The notes under the pieces were generated by a model. The model had not been told where the DNA came from and searched no databases. It was given only the letters and a program-made list of their open reading frames with translations. From a virus, in IMG/VR virus record IMGVR_UViG_3300031669_000273, positions 1 through 21,407 of that record: DNA of 21,407 nucleotides; one strand, written 5' to 3'. The translations under genes and the position numbers were made by a program. Below, one piece after another: positions 933 to 15,757 of this stretch. How positions within the stretch are numbered: position 1 is the first letter of the stretch; the number at the start of each line of letters is the position of its first letter.

Positions 933-1468
933 TTCATCCCCGCTGGCGTTGCTAGAGTCGTCGCTGATTGCAGTTGCATCGTGGCAGCGGCATCGCTAGG
1001 CGTCGTCTGTGACCCCGACCAGCACAAATCCTGCACAGCCTTGACGTAGGACGGATTGCGCCCGAGGGTATCGACCGGCATCAGGCAGAACTGTTCGGCG
1101 GCAACCTTGGCCTGGAGATCGGAGGCGGCGCGCGCGGAGACGACGGCGGACGTATTCAGGGCAGTGAGCGCCTGGAACTGGGTCGCGCAACCGCCCATCG
1201 CCAGCGCGGCACCAATGGCCAGGATCAGCAGCAGGAACGGCATGGCTCGGCCGGCTTGCTTGTCGCCCCGGGACGTGGCAGGAGGCGCACTCTGCGCGCG
1301 AGGATTGATCATCGTCAGGACGTGCCCCGTCAATGCGCCCAGGGTGGCCTGGATGAATTCAACGAGGGTATCAGCGCCGGGCGTCTTGGCGAGCACCAGG
1401 GTCAGCCATCCGCCGAACAGCACGAGGTAGCCGATGGCGTAGAGGGCGATGGGTAGGTTCGGATTCAT
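929..1468 (-). CDS. Membrane protein with internal lipobox-like segment (o-spanin/holin-like candidate)
   Basis: This 179-aa protein has two distinct parts. Residues 8-27 form one hydrophobic segment and about 36-54 a weaker one, like a small holin-type membrane protein. Residues 76-94 then read like a lipoprotein signal: Met, a Leu/Ile/Ala-rich core, then AMGGC with Cys94. A periplasmic-looking region with two further Cys follows. An internal ATG at 1243 would give a 104-aa lipoprotein alone, but I see no good ribosome binding site there, whereas the full start has GGAG 7 nt upstream. It overlaps the previous stop (1465) and the next start (932) as ATGA. It could be a fusion, two nested products, or a two-pass membrane protein. 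The o-spanin role is inferred from neighbours. Confidence 0.6.
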   Translation of the reverse strand: MNPNLPIALYAIGYLVLFGGWLTLVLAKTPGADTLVEFIQATLGALTGHVLTMINPRAQSAPPATSRGDKQAGRAMPFLLLILAIGAALAMGGCATQFQALTALNTSAVVSARAASDLQAKVAAEQFCLMPVDTLGRNPSYVKAVQDLCWSGSQTTPSDAAATMQLQSATTLATPAGMK

Positions 1469-2022
1469 GTTTTCTCTCCATGTGGGTGGTCAAGGACTTC
1501 ATCCGGGCTGAACACGAACCCGGGTACGCGCGGCATGGCCTGGAAGATCCAGACGGCCATGCTCATCATGTGAATGCCGTGGTCTTTGTGGCGGTGGAAC
1601 TTGGCGTGCAGGACCAGCATGTTTTCCATGCTGTCCACGAAGGTCTCCGGGTGCGCGGGGTCGAAGGCGTGCCAGTCGAAGCCGCGGGCCTCGGCGAGCT
1701 TGCAGATGATCCAGAGCAGCGAATGCCGGGCGTCGAAGGTCTCGGAGGTCGGCTGATCGGTGACAAGGTCGAGCACCGGCAGCCGGGTAATCTCGCCCGT
1801 GGCGACACCTTTCACCGTCACCCAATCCACGCCGGCGGAGAACGCCCACTCATTGAAGACGTGGTGGTACTCGGTGTCCTCCACCTGACCGCTGATGGCG
1901 CACGGGATGCGCTGGGCGTGGCCGGCCTTCTTCGTCGCGACGAAGACGTGAGACTCGGTGCGCGGCGGATGGTCTGGGTAATAGATGTCCTCGGCCAGCG
2001 TGCGCTTGTCTTCGTGGCTCAT
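1465..2022 (-). CDS. HNH-like hypothetical phage protein
   Basis: This 185-aa protein has a pattern like the beta-beta-alpha metal fold of HNH nucleases. It contains CAIS at residue 41, a His-His pair at 53-54 followed by Asn57, then Asn134 and the His-rich FHRHKDHGIH at 142-151. The spacing between the His pair and the second half is much longer than in simple HNH proteins, so nuclease activity is only inferred. An upstream ATG at 2109 would add 29 Arg-rich residues that run back through the previous gene. I chose 2022 because GGAAG lies 7 nt upstream and the ATG overlaps the previous TGA as ATGA. HNH genes usually sit near terminase, so the lysis-cassette position is unusual. Confidence 0.65.
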   Translation of the reverse strand: MSHEDKRTLAEDIYYPDHPPRTESHVFVATKKAGHAQRIPCAISGQVEDTEYHHVFNEWAFSAGVDWVTVKGVATGEITRLPVLDLVTDQPTSETFDARHSLLWIICKLAEARGFDWHAFDPAHPETFVDSMENMLVLHAKFHRHKDHGIHMMSMAVWIFQAMPRVPGFVFSPDEVLDHPHGEKT

Positions 2023-2237
2023 GGCGCGCTTCCGTGGAAACGCATGGCGTCGTAAAATCGCCCGCTGTATTCTCCGTCCGCGCTCACTGAGCACACGGCG
2101 CTGCACCAACTACCGTGCGGGATCGTCTGATCAAGCACGATGTTGTCGGCACCGGGATCTTTCCCATCACCGGTCTTTACGATTCGGACGCCAACTGCGG
2201 TGCGCTGGAAGAACAGACCGTCGTTGCTATGGAACAT
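2019..2237 (-). CDS. Small conserved-type phage protein, 72 aa
   Basis: A 72-aa product of unknown function, soluble, with no membrane segment and two Cys near the middle (WCSAVC). Its composition and its run of beta-prone segments (FFQRTAVGVRIVKT) suggest a small beta-rich fold. The open frame extends to an ATG at 2279, but that would place the upstream terminator hairpin inside the gene. The ATG at 2237 has AGGA 9 nt upstream and follows the terminator. It couples to the next gene through an ATGA overlap. It heads the second half of the lysis cassette, right after the terminator at 2256-2276. Confidence 0.65.
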   Translation of the reverse strand: MFHSNDGLFFQRTAVGVRIVKTGDGKDPGADNIVLDQTIPHGSWCSAVCSVSADGEYSGRFYDAMRFHGSAP

Positions 2238-7092: not shown

Positions 7093-8502
7093 TCAGCTCA
7101 TGTTGCCGACATCGTAAGGCGACGAGTACATGCCGGAATTGACAGCGCTGGATACTTGAGACGGCGTTGACCCGGTATTGAACATGCCCGCCTGGTTCAT
7201 CTGGTTGTAAATCCCGAGTCCACCTGTTGCAAGACCCAGCATGTTCCCGACAGGGTTCGTAAAGTACGGGTTGCTTTGCGAAGCGGAGCCACCAAGCGAT
7301 GCGCCGCCATTGATCAGCCCAGCGTAGTTGTTCAGGTTCGTCTGATTGTACGCATTTGGCGCATTCATCGCGCCCTGCAACGCTGAGTTGTTATTCTGGG
7401 CAAGCGTATTTCCCGCTCCGATGACGTCCAACCCAGACAGCGCATTGTTCAGGTTTTGCGTATTCACCGCCATGTTCTGAACGTTGTTGCTGAGTTGATT
7501 CTGCGCGTTTTTCGTCTGCCCTTGCATGTTCAGGCCGGCATTGATCTGGGACGCATTGTTAAGCGCTGAACTGTTGAACTGCTGCGCCGCCAGAGCGTTC
7601 TGTGAATTTGCCATACTCGCTTGCAGCGCTTGGTTCGCGTTCGTGGTTTGCCCAGCGAGATTGAGCGCTGCGTTCTGTTGGGCATTCGAGATACCTAGCC
7701 CAGCCATATTGTTGGCCGTCGAGTTCATGTTGTTTTGCGCTTGGGTATAAGCGTTCCCATACAAACCGGAAATGTCATTGTTCAATCCAGTCTGCGCATT
7801 CCCAATCGCCACGCCTTGCGCAATCCCCTGCCTTGAGCCTCCATACTGACCAGCCGCTTCGGCTCCCTGCCCAATACCAGGCAAGACGTTCTGCTGAAGA
7901 TTCTGATTCGATAAGGCGGTGATTGCATTTGCCTGCTGTGACAGGTAGGGATTATTGACTTGGCCGGAAAGTAATTGGCTGATAGAGGATGTGGGATTTG
8001 CGCCACCCATTGAGGCATACGCCTGCGAGGGGTCAACTGATTGAGCGCTAACGCTTCCCCCTTGAACGGAAGGGGCACCAGATATTTGAGACGCCCCAAC
8101 CGTCGGCGCAGTGATCTGGTTCGGGGCCGTCAATGTGGGGTTATAAGCCCCATTGAGCATTTGGTTACTGGCGCTGTTGTAGGCTCCCAACTGACCCGGC
8201 GTTTGAGATGATAGGTAGTTCTGATATTGGGTGTTATTCGACTGCATGGCAGGCGACCAGGCGGCCTGTTGATACTGCTGATTGCCGAGGCTATAGAGCC
8301 CTGGCGTCTGCATCGTCATGCCCGTTGGGCTTAATGTATTGCCGCCTGTGAGATACGGCTGCACGCCTGCCCACGGGGCATTCGTGGCCGTGGTAGTGGT
8401 ATTCCCTGCGGGCTGGCTGCCGCCGCCGCCTCCGCCACCGCCTCCTAACAAGCTCCCCCCCACCACTCCAACCGCCGCCGCTCCTATCGCTCCCCAGCTC
8501 AT
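7093..8502 (-). CDS. Asn/Gln-rich virion protein (ejection or tail component)
   Basis: This 469-aa protein opens with a small hydrophobic Gly/Ala/Val segment at residues 4-19 and an uninterrupted run of nine Gly at 20-28. A conserved-looking patch at about 190-245 includes the motif AAGQYGGSRQGIAQG, which I associate with a podovirus structural protein family of unknown role. Most of the rest is Asn/Gln/Ala-rich helix-like repeats (NANQALQ, NSQNALAAQ, NAQNQL and similar). There are almost no charged residues. Position between the cupin-SET gene and two ejection-type proteins suggests that it is packaged in the virion and ejected, or lines the tail. The ATG overlaps the previous TGA as ATGA. 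Confidence 0.6.
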   Translation of the reverse strand: MSWGAIGAAAVGVVGGSLLGGGGGGGGGSQPAGNTTTTATNAPWAGVQPYLTGGNTLSPTGMTMQTPGLYSLGNQQYQQAAWSPAMQSNNTQYQNYLSSQTPGQLGAYNSASNQMLNGAYNPTLTAPNQITAPTVGASQISGAPSVQGGSVSAQSVDPSQAYASMGGANPTSSISQLLSGQVNNPYLSQQANAITALSNQNLQQNVLPGIGQGAEAAGQYGGSRQGIAQGVAIGNAQTGLNNDISGLYGNAYTQAQNNMNSTANNMAGLGISNAQQNAALNLAGQTTNANQALQASMANSQNALAAQQFNSSALNNASQINAGLNMQGQTKNAQNQLSNNVQNMAVNTQNLNNALSGLDVIGAGNTLAQNNNSALQGAMNAPNAYNQTNLNNYAGLINGGASLGGSASQSNPYFTNPVGNMLGLATGGLGIYNQMNQAGMFNTGSTPSQVSSAVNSGMYSSPYDVGNMS

Positions 8503-9497
8503 ACAATTCCTTTCTTAATGGTTCGGCTGCTGTCATTGAGGGTGATCCCAGACAACTGCGCCCCTTGCCTGTAGTCGTTCAGGATCTCTGCGCCAACTGG
8601 AATGTCTTCAGTGGCAATAGAGTCCAAATCTCCATTAGTCAAAAGGAGAAATTCAGTGTTCTTGCGTGGGGAGTGATTGGCGTACCGGCCTAACGGAGTG
8701 CGCTTCCCCGCAATCCTGGCTGGCCCAATAACTTCGCCTGACTTGATGGCTTTCTCTGTAAAAAGCCCCATCCCTTCAATGCCGGAAGGCTTGATGACTA
8801 AATGTGCATAGCCTTCAGGAAAATCGGTTTGATCTTCTGGATTCTCTGAAACAGATCGCACCCATTTGTGTGATTTTCCAGTTTCCTCTAGCACCTTCAG
8901 GTAATCCGAGCGAGCAACATGGACATCATGGAACCGCTCATATTCTGAGTAAGTCTTGGCGATAACTTCATCTTCTATCTTGTCGAGGTCTGTTTCATTT
9001 GTTGGGTGAATGGTGGTCCAGACTGAGTCTGTATGCGCATAGACGGCGCGCTTTGTCCCTGGCGGAGAGACCATCGTTAGCGGTCCCGATAGCCGCTCCA
9101 CACCACCGCTTTCGGTGATTACATCTACCGTCCCCATTGAGAGAATATTGACATGGGCATGCTTATGGATCTTGCCCACAATGACGCTACCCGCCGGCAG
9201 GATGATCGTGCGCGCATAGACCCCGGGAGCGAAAACATGCTGCAACGGAAATTCAATATCCGGCAACTGCGCCAGCGATGCCTGCAAGTCATATAGTTTT
9301 TGCCGTGTGCTGCCCGCTGGCTGAAGCGGGCCTTGTTCGTTGGCATCCTGAACGGCTACTGCGCGTCTAGCCTCGCCTACCGTATCGCCTGCCACAAACC
9401 CCGCCAATCGGAGTCGTGTCGGTGCGTCCGACAGAGCTAAATTCGGCGCCAAAGAGACTTTCTGGCGCTTACCCCGCTGTGTGTAGATGACGATCAT
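8499..9497 (-). CDS. Cupin-SET domain fusion protein
   Basis: This 332-aa protein has a cupin-like barrel at about residues 93-165: a GKIHKHAH metal-ligand-type motif at 109-115 and the second cupin motif around PPGTKRAVYAH at 145-154. A SET-like domain fills about 233-311. Its hallmarks are the GIEGMGLF start (239-246), RYANHS at 271-276 with the canonical Asn-His pair, and the closing EILNDYR with Tyr309. SET domains are usually protein-lysine methyltransferases using S-adenosylmethionine. This one is short and lacks the Cys-rich flanks of eukaryotic enzymes. I chose 9497 because the ATG overlaps the preceding TGA as ATGA; an ATG at 9512 is also in frame. It sits among virion genes, so it may modify a structural or host protein, or be structural itself. 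Confidence 0.75.
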   Translation of the reverse strand: MIVIYTQRGKRQKVSLAPNLALSDAPTRLRLAGFVAGDTVGEARRAVAVQDANEQGPLQPAGSTRQKLYDLQASLAQLPDIEFPLQHVFAPGVYARTIILPAGSVIVGKIHKHAHVNILSMGTVDVITESGGVERLSGPLTMVSPPGTKRAVYAHTDSVWTTIHPTNETDLDKIEDEVIAKTYSEYERFHDVHVARSDYLKVLEETGKSHKWVRSVSENPEDQTDFPEGYAHLVIKPSGIEGMGLFTEKAIKSGEVIGPARIAGKRTPLGRYANHSPRKNTEFLLLTNGDLDSIATEDIPVGAEILNDYRQGAQLSGITLNDSSRTIKKGIV

Positions 9498-9763
9498 CCG
9501 AGCAAGTGCCACGCCGATGCGTAGTACCCATAAAATCCCTGGCCAGAGCCGGGGTTCCAGTGCGTACCGTCTGCCAACCGGACATCGCCATCTCTTGGCT
9601 TTGCTGGGGCGAAATAAGTAGTATCGAGATGCCCCGCTGCAAGCAACTTGATCGCCGCAGAGATGCGATTCAGTTCTGCCTGTAGATACCGTTGAAGCTC
9701 TTGTGGATTGGTCGGCGGCTGTCCGTTAGGGGCGTAAGCCGCGGTCGAGATAGACGCGGTCAT
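9494..9763 (-). CDS. Small virion-region protein, 89 aa
   Basis: An 89-aa product whose first half contains a helix (PQELQRYLQAELNRISAAIK) and whose second half is beta-prone (DGDVRLADGTHWNPGSGQG, then GFYGYYASAWHLLG). The C-terminal pattern recurs in small phage proteins next to tail or ejection genes, but I cannot name a family or function. The ATG shares one base with the tail-hub stop (TGATG), and its own stop overlaps the next gene as ATGA, so it is translated as part of the same coupled chain. It may be a short adaptor or a minor virion component. Confidence 0.65.
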   Translation of the reverse strand: MTASISTAAYAPNGQPPTNPQELQRYLQAELNRISAAIKLLAAGHLDTTYFAPAKPRDGDVRLADGTHWNPGSGQGFYGYYASAWHLLG

Positions 9764-11316
9764 CAGTACAGCCCCATCAATTCAATGTCGAAATCGAACG
9801 AATCCAGGCGCCATTGATAGGCGGACCCCGTGGAAAACTTGACCGCGATATATCTGCCAACAACCGTACAGTCATCATGGACGGTGATTCCGATGACATG
9901 CTGCATCACGGGGCCATAGACCGGATCAGCATAGGGATCGTCGCTGCTCCCAACCTGAATATTTACTGTTGATCCCACACTGCCGACGATTCGCGGACGA
10001 ATGGCACGAACAAGCTTCAATTGCTCCGGGGCGCCAAATGTCAAGCCGCGCCTTTCGAGATAGGCAGAGGGGAGAGCCCCGTCATAACTGCTGGATGAAT
10101 CGAGCAGGTATAGTTTCGTATTCGCACTGCCCATCATTACTCGGGCGGTTGAGGGCACAAAATCCGGCCCCCCCCACAAGGTCAGGTCAGAATCCCACGG
10201 CGCCGAATCTTCGTTCCAGTTCCCATCTAGACCGTTATCCACTGGCCCAAAGGAGGCGTGATTAAGATTCGGGAGCGAACGAAACGAAACCGTCTTGTCG
10301 ACATAGTTCCATACCATCGCGGTGTCGCAAGTCGTCGCTCCGATGGATGGATAACAGATCAAGACCTCATTGAAGAACGGGTTCTTGAATACAAAGGCCA
10401 GATTCGATCCTGAGGTGTCAATGTTCTGGAAAAGATAACGTCGGGTCTCTTTGTCCAGGCAGCTATTCGCCGTTTGCCCGTCATGGACAATGACATCCGA
10501 TCCGGTCAAAACAACGTGATAGCCGTCTATTTCGGCAATGCAGTTTCTGTTTAGCGCACCACTTGTACCGAGTACCTTTGTGAACTGATAGATGTACGCG
10601 CCGCCTGTAAAATCCATCCTCCAGACAGAATTTTCCTTGTAGATGATGAAACTATTGCGAAGCTGCATCCCATCAACAATCGGGTCATACCCTTCAGCAA
10701 TGTCATTCTCTCCGCAGTCTTTGGTGGGGTCGGTGATGTCCCAAGAAACTGGGAGCGTCCCGGGGTCTGCGGGCTGCGACCACTTGACCATGAAAGGATA
10801 ATTTTGCGAACCCTTGGTGACATTGAGGGCAATGAGCGTATTGTTAAAAGCCCGTAGGCTCTTGCAGTATGTCGATGCCGGCCAGTTCGCCAAATCGATA
10901 AACTTGTCAGTCGTCACCAAGTCCCACGACATCGGGACATTAATCGTATCGCCACTATTGAGGATCGGGATGCCAGAGAGCAGCGTCGAGGTCCATTGAT
11001 TGACGACGCCTGTACGCGGAGTTGCATTGGTGATGTCGGTATGTACGGCTACGCCTCCCGTGATCGTCACGCAGAATGTTTTCGTCGCAGTAGCGTAGAT
11101 CCAATATCGAGAGCCATTGACGTTGCACGGCAAGACATGCTGAGGCGTGTAGGTCGGCGAGTTGTAAACTTCGCCATACCCGTAGGCTTGGGATGCAAGA
11201 CCATCCAGAAACCTGATATTGCTTGCGTCTGTCCAGGCGTTCGGCGGCAAATCAGGGGCCGACAAATCCTTATTGACGCCGATGGCACCGGCCTGCTGGA
11301 TTGGGACTATTGGCAT
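9763..11316 (-). CDS. Tail hub / DNA-stabilisation-type protein, propeller-like
   Basis: A 517-aa protein with repeated beta-strand segments. The pattern is that of podovirus tail proteins with a propeller fold: an N-terminus that reads GVNKDLSAPDLPPNAWTDASN, then strand-turn repeats such as LNSGDTINVP, NSFIIYKENSVWRM, HVVLTGSDVIVHDG and FNEVLICYPS. Proteins of this type (related in role to P22 gp10) close the portal channel and link it to the tail needle or spike. The assignment is by composition, size and position, not a verified family hit. The start at 11316 follows a terminator and has no strong ribosome binding site. The stop shares a base with the next ATG. Confidence 0.65.
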   Translation of the reverse strand: MPIVPIQQAGAIGVNKDLSAPDLPPNAWTDASNIRFLDGLASQAYGYGEVYNSPTYTPQHVLPCNVNGSRYWIYATATKTFCVTITGGVAVHTDITNATPRTGVVNQWTSTLLSGIPILNSGDTINVPMSWDLVTTDKFIDLANWPASTYCKSLRAFNNTLIALNVTKGSQNYPFMVKWSQPADPGTLPVSWDITDPTKDCGENDIAEGYDPIVDGMQLRNSFIIYKENSVWRMDFTGGAYIYQFTKVLGTSGALNRNCIAEIDGYHVVLTGSDVIVHDGQTANSCLDKETRRYLFQNIDTSGSNLAFVFKNPFFNEVLICYPSIGATTCDTAMVWNYVDKTVSFRSLPNLNHASFGPVDNGLDGNWNEDSAPWDSDLTLWGGPDFVPSTARVMMGSANTKLYLLDSSSSYDGALPSAYLERRGLTFGAPEQLKLVRAIRPRIVGSVGSTVNIQVGSSDDPYADPVYGPVMQHVIGITVHDDCTVVGRYIAVKFSTGSAYQWRLDSFDFDIELMGLY

Positions 11317-14128: not shown

Positions 14129-14409
14129 CAGATCGCCCCGGGATACGTCCTAAATGCCGCATATTCAGGTCTCTTGAGGATCTTCATTATTTCCTTCGCG
14201 TCGTCTTTGTCAAAGAAATCCAGGCCGGTTTCCTGACATATCTTCATCAGAATAACGTGCGGGACGCGCATGACGTGGTGCATTTCGCCCTTCTTGTCGA
14301 AGACCGATCGCTGCGCCATCTGCTCATGGTTGGCCTTGATGGTGGCTTCAAGATCCTGGGTGTGCGTGACGAATACCTTATCGCCTTCCTCTTTGTACTG
14401 AATGCGCAT
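14128..14409 (-). CDS. 93-aa head-region protein
   Basis: A charged 93-aa protein with no membrane segment. The first half has helical character (TQDLEATIKANHEQMAQRS). The rest contains MHHVMRVPHVILMKICQETG and DFFDKDDAKEIMKILKRPEY, a patch that looks like a small helix-turn-helix-sized domain. I do not recognise a named family. Its position between the decoration-type protein and the adaptor is commonly filled by small neck or completion proteins, but that role is only positional. It starts one base after the previous stop (TGATATG) and shares one base with the next ATG. Confidence 0.65.
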   Translation of the reverse strand: MRIQYKEEGDKVFVTHTQDLEATIKANHEQMAQRSVFDKKGEMHHVMRVPHVILMKICQETGLDFFDKDDAKEIMKILKRPEYAAFRTYPGAI

Positions 14410-14410
14410 A

Positions 14411-14698
14411 TCAGTGAGTCAGCTCAACAACGGAGAAATTGCCCGTAGCGGAAGCGTCCTGAATGACGGCGATTTTGTCGCCAGGAGACACGGCAAGAAT
14501 GAGGGGTTGATCGGACGATTTGACGAGGTAATCGGTCGCTACGGCAACAGGTGCCGTGCCGGTAGCAATGTGGCAATTACCCAATGCGGCCACCATGATT
14601 GCGTAAGTCTGCGAACCGAATGCAGTAGAGGCAACAGAAGTAGCGCCAATGGCCAAAATCTGCCCTGTGCCAGGAATGAGGCGGAAAGGTCGATCCAT
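14411..14698 (-). CDS. Capsid decoration-type protein, 95 aa
   Basis: A 95-aa, beta-rich protein with the pattern QILAIGATSVASTAFGSQTY, then NCHIATGTAPVA, and a C-terminal PGDKIAVIQDASATGNFSVVEL. Small proteins with this pattern are common just after the major capsid gene and are thought to decorate or stabilise the head. The ATG at 14698 has GGAG 6 nt upstream. The open frame could begin at a TTG at 14710, but that would put the ribosome binding site inside the gene. It directly follows the UUCG-loop terminator, so its level may differ from that of the capsid protein. Confidence 0.7.
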   Translation of the reverse strand: MDRPFRLIPGTGQILAIGATSVASTAFGSQTYAIMVAALGNCHIATGTAPVAVATDYLVKSSDQPLILAVSPGDKIAVIQDASATGNFSVVELTH

Positions 14699-14708
14699 GC
14701 GAATCTCC

Positions 14709-14739
14709 AAAAGAAAAGGGGCGACCGAAGCCGCCCCTT
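14709..14739 (-). terminator. Strong UUCG-loop intrinsic terminator after the major capsid gene
   Basis: Minus strand: AAGGGGCGGC, loop TTCG, GTCGCCCCTT (one G-U pair), then TTCTTTT. The 10-bp stem with an exceptionally stable C(UUCG)G loop lies between the capsid stop (14759) and the decoration gene start (14698). Confidence 0.85.
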
Positions 14740-14758
14740 GTGTTGCTTGCCGCTAAGA

Positions 14759-15739
14759 TCAGCCAGTTGTGTCGTAGATCGCGCCCAGCGCCTTCTCGTT
14801 GCCAACCTCCAGGCAGTAATCGACAAGCAACATCTTCTTGTCGCTGTCGCCGGTTTTCGCCAGTGGGATGGTCTGGAACGGACGCAGGTATGCAACCTTG
14901 ACGTACTGCGGATTGATGAAGAAGCAGTCGCCCGAGTGCGCCAGGAAAATGTCGGGGATGATCTTCACTTCGCCGAAGTCGGACTGGTAGACGTCAACCG
15001 CTGTCTGCAGCGTCTTGTCTTCCACCTGGTTAAAACGAGTGCCGGGGCCGGTGAAAGCGGAGATCAATTGCTTATTGACCGGAGACACCAGGCAGTACTC
15101 AGGAGACTCGCCGGACGAGGTGAATATCTTCTGCAGGACGCTCTTGACTTCGGCCTCCGTGATAGCTGCTGTTACTGCGGTACCAGATGTGTTGTTGTAC
15201 ACGCGAACATCCGCACCCGTGAGCGCGGCCGGGTTTGCGCCAGCCGTTGTGCCGGTCGTGAGGAACACGGTATTGGTGCCCAACCAAGCCGGCAAACCTG
15301 CCGACAAGGAAGCAGTCGAGGACGATCCTGCAGCCTTGGCCTGGTTGTAAGTAAGAATGCCTTCCATGTCGCGCTTGAGTTCCTTGGACTTCTTCAGGAG
15401 TTGATAGCCCATCTTATTGGAGTCACCAGCGGCAATGACCGCTTGCGACTTGCCGGAGATCTGGATGGTCTTGTTGGATGTTTGGACATAGTTGCCCAAA
15501 CGCGTGGTGGCGGCCAGCGAAATAGCGGCCGGATCGTCGCCTTCAATGGCGGCATTGGAGAGGTTTTGGGACGCGAGCGAGTCGGTATTCCACTCGTGAT
15601 ACCCCTGCTTGGCGGAAGTCTTCTTCGCCATGTTCAGAAGTGGGGTTTTGAACGGGTCGACGTTGTAGATCGCGTTGATCAGGTCTTCGCGGATGTTGGT
15701 CTGCGTGTAAGTCTGCAGAGTATTCGAGGGGACAGCCAT
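14759..15739 (-). CDS. Major capsid protein, SU10 / DUF5309 family
   Basis: This 326-aa protein matches the SU10-type major capsid family (DUF5309), which has an HK97-like fold and forms the icosahedral shell. The family pattern is clear: NIREDLINAIYNVDPFKTPL at residues 15-34, HEWNTDSLA at 48-56, EGDDP at 66-70, an ISGKSQAV segment at 94-101, and KELKRDMEGIL at 119-129. The length is typical. The ATG has AGGAG 8 nt upstream and lies 18 bases after the scaffold stop. A very stable terminator follows its stop, which fits the need to set capsid level apart from the downstream genes. A long open frame on the opposite strand here is a shadow. Confidence 0.92.
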   Translation of the reverse strand: MAVPSNTLQTYTQTNIREDLINAIYNVDPFKTPLLNMAKKTSAKQGYHEWNTDSLASQNLSNAAIEGDDPAAISLAATTRLGNYVQTSNKTIQISGKSQAVIAAGDSNKMGYQLLKKSKELKRDMEGILTYNQAKAAGSSSTASLSAGLPAWLGTNTVFLTTGTTAGANPAALTGADVRVYNNTSGTAVTAAITEAEVKSVLQKIFTSSGESPEYCLVSPVNKQLISAFTGPGTRFNQVEDKTLQTAVDVYQSDFGEVKIIPDIFLAHSGDCFFINPQYVKVAYLRPFQTIPLAKTGDSDKKMLLVDYCLEVGNEKALGAIYDTTG

Positions 15740-15757
15740 GATTGATGCTCCTAAAGT

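Follow-up and report, generated by a model that had tools for sequence, protein, structure and literature searches.

The window (the whole stretch of viral DNA analyzed here, 21,407 nucleotides of a short-tailed phage) carries, among genes for tail and ejection proteins, one gene whose product was described in the first-pass annotation as a cupin barrel joined to a short SET-like domain. SET proteins are familiar mainly as chromatin enzymes of eukaryotes, and the question raised by this locus is what such a domain does in a block of virion genes and whether it could be a methyltransferase there. If the reading proposed below is true, a widespread phage lineage whose minimal SET core stays intact in the absence of a substrate platform, and is passed as a unit from one virion-block cupin to another, would test the minimum that SET catalysis requires. 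It would also indicate a modification of proteins that short-tailed phages either carry out or inject. The question is directly testable, since Rhodoferax phage P26218, which is cultured and lytic and has a known host, carries a homologue.

The fusion gene and its predicted folds

The features of the gene and its neighbors are collected in Table 1. According to the start and stop coordinates, the cupin-SET gene overlaps by 4 bp with the genes on both sides. The tail and ejection context postulated earlier was supported by synteny with ejection genes: 79 of 89 SET fusions have a relative of the "DNA ejection" gene of P26218 (PHROG_598) downstream and 65 of 89 are preceded by a gp10-like gene, in contigs that are often cut. 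The P26218 equivalent of the ejection-like gene downstream in the window matches PHROG_598 "DNA ejection" with 8.7e-53. The cupin motifs HKHAH and PPG (residues 145-147) were found where they had been placed, but the histidine after PPG is residue 155, not 154; NHS and NDY of the SET part occupy residues 274-276 and 307-309.

Table 1: Coordinates of the cupin-SET gene, its parts and its neighbors in the window.
Feature	Position	Strand	Remarks
Cupin-SET fusion gene, 332 aa	8499..9497	-	ATG at 9497, stop ending 8499; PHROG_34170, 5.6e-53 over aa 79-314
Alternative GTG start of the same gene, 337 aa	9512
N-terminal extension, aa 1-59	9321..9497	-	AlphaFold2 pLDDT <50; length varies among relatives (gaps in alignment of other fused members)
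Cupin-fold domain, aa 61-190	8928..9317	-	PHROG_12032 "short tail fiber protein"/BPP-1 Bbp23 family
HKHAH motif, aa 111-115	9153..9167	-	Within the family, H115 is the only conserved His
Helical pre-SET segment, aa 193-225 (DYxxxLxExG...N..DQ..P)	8823..8921	-	Left edge of the mobile module
SET domain in minimal form, aa 226-316, lacking SET-I	8550..8822	-	Pfam, AlphaFold2 model, structure and profile matches
GIEGMG, SET-N GxG motif	8766..8783	-	G242 and G244 invariant in 55 homologues
ARIAGKRT, family-specific signature at the expected SET-I site	8697..8720	-	R266 and T267 invariant
NHS motif, aa 274-276	8670..8678	-	N274 and H275 invariant
NDYRQ, aa 307-311	8565..8579	-	Y309 invariant; catalytic Tyr position of solved SETs
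Small upstream protein, 89 aa	9494..9763	-	4-bp overlap with cupin-SET gene; weak PHROG_8092
Virion structural protein, PHROG_3287	9763..11316	-	Where relatives have a P22 gp10-like gene (synteny)
Ejection-like protein downstream	7093..8502	-	4-bp overlap; PHROG_4287 "DNA ejection", 1.7e-4

The reading frame and its SET-cupin fusion proved to be real, as a Pfam match above the curated cut-off, a confident AlphaFold2 model and matches to solved SET and cupin folds coincide. Pfam SET (PF00856) scored 28.7 bits in the window protein against a curated cut-off of 22.4 (E 1.8e-6), and a profile of 50 homologues matched MLL1 (2.9e-10), EZH2 (~1e-7) and PBCV-1 vSET (2.6e-6, on SET-C). The model was obtained from a 50-sequence alignment of the window and the fetched-locus sequences, with the annotated-phage rows left out; pLDDT was above 90 across most of residues 70-310, and the lack of a SET fold that had been considered beforehand did not occur. 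The SET part superimposed on EZH2 and MLL1 with Z of 11-11.7 and rmsd of 1.8-2.7 over 81-95 residues. The cupin part matched many cupin structures with Z of ~10, VIA among them (Z about 10, Foldseek probability 1.00). Between both domains the model has helices at 183-206, whose end lies in the pre-SET segment, and at 210-217. In the predicted model the N- and C-terminal halves of the SET part are paired, as in a SET fold. Searches of the window protein against the PADLOC anti-phage defense models (no match at E<=1) and against NCBIfam (no match) were negative.

With MLL1/KMT2A, EZH2 and SET8 (PF00856) the window protein shares the SET-N and SET-C folds and the GxG, NHS, E and Y motifs, of which GxG binds S-adenosylmethionine (SAM) in solved SETs; unlike them, it has no SET-I, it is fused to a phage cupin, and its SET is ~35-38 residues shorter than those of MLL1 and EZH2 (in the structural ranges, ~86 model residues versus 124 in MLL1). 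The difference falls in one place. The match to MLL1 is split, with profile positions 188-214 aligning to chain positions 17-43 and profile positions 225-273 to chain positions 89-134, and in this profile alignment ~11 residues stand between SET-N and SET-C where MLL1 has ~46. Because of this reduction the SET-I platform and the strand that precedes it (EYxG) are missing, and the usual substrate groove is absent as well. The platform and strand of a canonical SET lysine methyltransferase are thus not found, and the window protein is assigned to the SET superfamily rather than to the canonical enzymes. With SET-I missing, the earlier label of protein-lysine methyltransferase is kept here as putative.

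PBCV-1 vSET (A612L) is also a compact viral SET, although it is a chain of 119 residues whereas the SET of the window has ~91 and is tied to a virion-block cupin. A similarly short SET was observed in BFVD entry A0A481YSP5 (Marseillevirus LCMAC101, 100 aa), with rmsd of 1.3 over 85 columns against the model; since this giant-virus protein fits the model, short SETs are not limited to phages.

Conservation, distribution and origin of the module

In 55 fused homologues (~35% identity to the window), S238, G242, G244, R266, T267, G270, R271, N274, H275, E304 and Y309 are invariant. The NHS motif and the C-terminal Tyr noticed before are therefore intact, and their feared loss in homologues did not occur. 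The permuted, split and stand-alone members of the lineage likewise preserve the cofactor and catalytic residues, and R266 and T267 constitute a signature of this lineage. Median dN/dS was 0.11 for the SET and 0.07 for the cupin (94 pairs, non-independent), values that indicate strong purifying selection on the SET. The cupin behaved differently from what its annotation as metal-binding had suggested: H111 is found in 22 of the 55 homologues, H113 in 12 and H115 in 50. The reading as a metal-cupin enzyme was discarded, as the putative ligand set is not conserved apart from H115, though the window has HKHAH. In two other loci, L030 and L047, the cupins are 99% identical and the SETs 92%, which hints at recombination at the domain boundary.

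Among annotated phages, the cupin was present in 63 records, in 8 of them together with SET. The search of viral contigs with the SET alignment, from which the best 80 of at least 414 relatives were kept, was completed with 16 from genome contigs; the counts of arrangements come from this SET-led search and are not frequencies. Among the kept relatives and the annotated phages there were 86 cupin-SET proteins and 3 in SET-cupin order (L032, L066, L073). The search for the fusion across phages that had been proposed thus turned up no fewer than 86 loci, viral or prophage, with the cupin-SET order, whose aligned identity to the window is 26-39%, and because the arrangement is conserved in so many loci the fusion is not due to chance. 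SET and cupin are neighboring genes in L077 and L109 (the split in L077 being possibly a sequencing frameshift), in L096 the two are 1.3 kb apart, with the SET gene downstream and directly before the portal gene, and in L034 a lone SET gene immediately precedes the terminase large subunit. The module is found in hundreds of viral contigs and in five arrangements: cupin-SET, SET-cupin, adjacent, separated and SET alone. Fused, permuted, split and stand-alone forms all have the helical segment DYxxxLxExG...N..DQ..P ahead of the SET, and the permuted proteins open with the module, which there starts at the initial methionine; this shared segment and this start define a module of ~125 residues.

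Lineage SET genes were also seen in bacterial contigs (L107:7716-8318 and L108:7788-8534) near primase/helicase (replication) or integrase genes rather than ejection genes, with longer flanking regions and no recognizable adjacent cupin; this location counts against the tail-linked enzyme proposed below. For the stand-alone SETs of L034, L107 and L108, hhalign detected no divergent cupin next to them. In L160:3320-5182, and in the same ORF of L167, a cupin of the family runs in frame via an extra domain into a 390-residue tail, whose composition resembles that of Gly/Gln-rich ejection-like proteins and which has no PHROG match.

Comparison with the nearest relatives bears on the origin of the module in the window. 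A scan of the cupin clade of the window, performed with a narrow cupin alignment as query so that the cupin-only counts describe this clade, gave 80 loci, and SET was found in 0 of the 80 within the stretch examined; in nine full records from those 80 (31-44 kb each, possibly fragments) it was found nowhere. The cupin-only relatives L122-L124 are 78-80% identical to the window cupin, and the nearest, L122, stops at ...YEQFLKIGVQP, where the window runs on into the module; the module boundary is clean against the cupin-only relatives, whose proteins stop at the point where it starts. The best full tree (101 rows) had five changes of SET state, and in it one SET clade was not rejected (p-AU 0.36). 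In a 36-row subset, with long branches removed and picked after the first tree had been seen, the window was grouped, with support, with six cupin-only rows; a single fusion origin, with the window and the fused members as one clade, was rejected in this tree (p-AU 7.1e-5). The simplest reading is that the lineage of the window would have acquired the SET module separately. The G+C content of the SET (0.50, versus 0.53 for the cupin and 0.56 for the window) agrees with a separate gain but proves nothing. Taken across loci, the SET is an accessory and mobile module, carried by a cupin whose gene adjoins P22 gp7-like ejection genes.

The same architecture and gene position are found in PHROG_34170 (296 aa, a family without assigned function) and in gp30 of P26218 (AKA60333.1), which is 33% identical to the window protein; the window differs in having a cupin from another clade and a SET without the GCxGG insertion. 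The cupin domain family is shared with the "short tail fiber" cupins (PHROG_12032) and with Bbp23 of Bordetella phage BPP-1, which have no SET. Both the SET superfamily and the cupin family were known before, and the fused proteins are already gathered in a PHROG that carries no label; no functional account of them is given in the literature searched, which included few subscription papers and held no description of a phage SET-cupin. The passages found of the papers on P26218 and PBR31 do not mention it, and neither virion proteomics nor an assay of a SET-cupin was found in the literature searched.

Proposed activity and competing explanations

The basis for an enzyme is formed by the two folds, the invariance of cofactor and catalytic residues, purifying selection, mobility and synteny. 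Considering these data together, the most likely reading, which we hold at even odds, is that the protein is a virion-block cupin with a mobile minimal SET module acting as a cupin-tethered, active SAM-dependent protein methyltransferase in an accessory role. The cupin would hold the SET module at the tail/ejection apparatus, or would keep the module with the apparatus during assembly, and either the cupin partner or a substrate site more open than usual may make up for the missing SET-I; we infer SAM binding, catalysis, presence in the virion and the existence of a target. Since close relatives are without the module its function would be accessory. This makes an indispensable step of assembly less likely than a host protein as target, encountered while ejection proceeds or afterwards, or than an optional modification of the virion. 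We lean slightly to a host target. The full version of this proposal, in which a mobile SET-I-less methyltransferase on a virion cupin is delivered with the genome and methylates a protein of the host as infection begins, and so would be a virion-borne protein methyltransferase of tailed phages, is tentative and rather doubtful.

A substrate in the virion was searched for in the neighboring families. No lysine column linked to SET and conserved in at least 60% of the SET-bearing phages was detected in the ejection-protein family (51 with SET, 42 without) or in the gp10-like family (44 with, 38 without), a negative result that weakens, and does not exclude, a candidate virion substrate. Another modifying enzyme was noted close to the cupin in two phages: in BPP-1 (L023:7480-8399, bbp24-bbp23) a GNAT acetyltransferase gene adjoins it, and in phage zth2-2 (OL791268.1:24429-24830) a GNAT gene lies ~400 bp downstream of cupin-SET. 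GNAT as a general partner was rejected, with PHROG_1249 matches in 4 of 51 cupin-only records and 1 of 35 SET records.

The main doubt on the methyltransferase reading is the absent SET-I. This absence, with that of the EYxG strand, could be expected of a non-catalytic module, in which the minimal SET would bind SAM or a protein partner and serve the cupin as a structural or sensing element, and SET-I would have been lost as no peptide is methylated; the lack of a candidate conserved lysine in the two families points the same way. However, Tyr309, NH and GxG are invariant across very diverged members and architectures, and a catalytic Tyr is not obviously needed structurally, so that we consider a non-catalytic role unlikely. 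We assign a similarly low probability to a modifier acting at assembly, which need not remain in the virion and would methylate an ejection or tail protein during building, somewhat like T7 gp13, a protein described as needed for the incorporation of other proteins into the virion (PMC5592923). The slot of the gene between tail-hub and ejection genes is that of T7 gene 13 (between the tail protein gp12 and the first ejection protein gp14), and the 4-bp overlaps with both neighbors are in line with such a role. The analogy is only positional, as gp13 belongs to a different Pfam family (PF11090), and the lysine search in ejection-protein and gp10-like neighbors counts against it. The many close relatives with a cupin and no SET do so too: the methylation of a structural protein during assembly, put forward in the first-pass annotation, is unlikely as an essential step when the 80 nearest cupin relatives are without SET.

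It could also be argued that the protein is an ordinary tail fiber or adhesin in which the cupin does the work and the SET is a functionless passenger. The database names of the cupin are "short tail fiber protein" and "tail fiber adhesin", PHROG families that match the cupin part alone of the window protein, and in the window's close relatives the cupin occurs by itself. In the papers searched these names had no experiment behind them and were database names only, and for a phage cupin annotated as short tail fiber validation is lacking according to PMC8703784. The strong purifying selection on the SET and the recurrence of the SET-cupin linkage in both fusion orders and as neighboring genes speak against a passenger, and we judge this explanation very improbable.

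Two further reading frames of the window were noted. At 1465-2109 (-) there is a His-rich ORF that by eye is HNH-type nuclease-like, and at 14402-15745 (+) a long ORF, probably a by-product of codon composition, overlaps the likely major capsid gene (14759-15739, -) in antisense.
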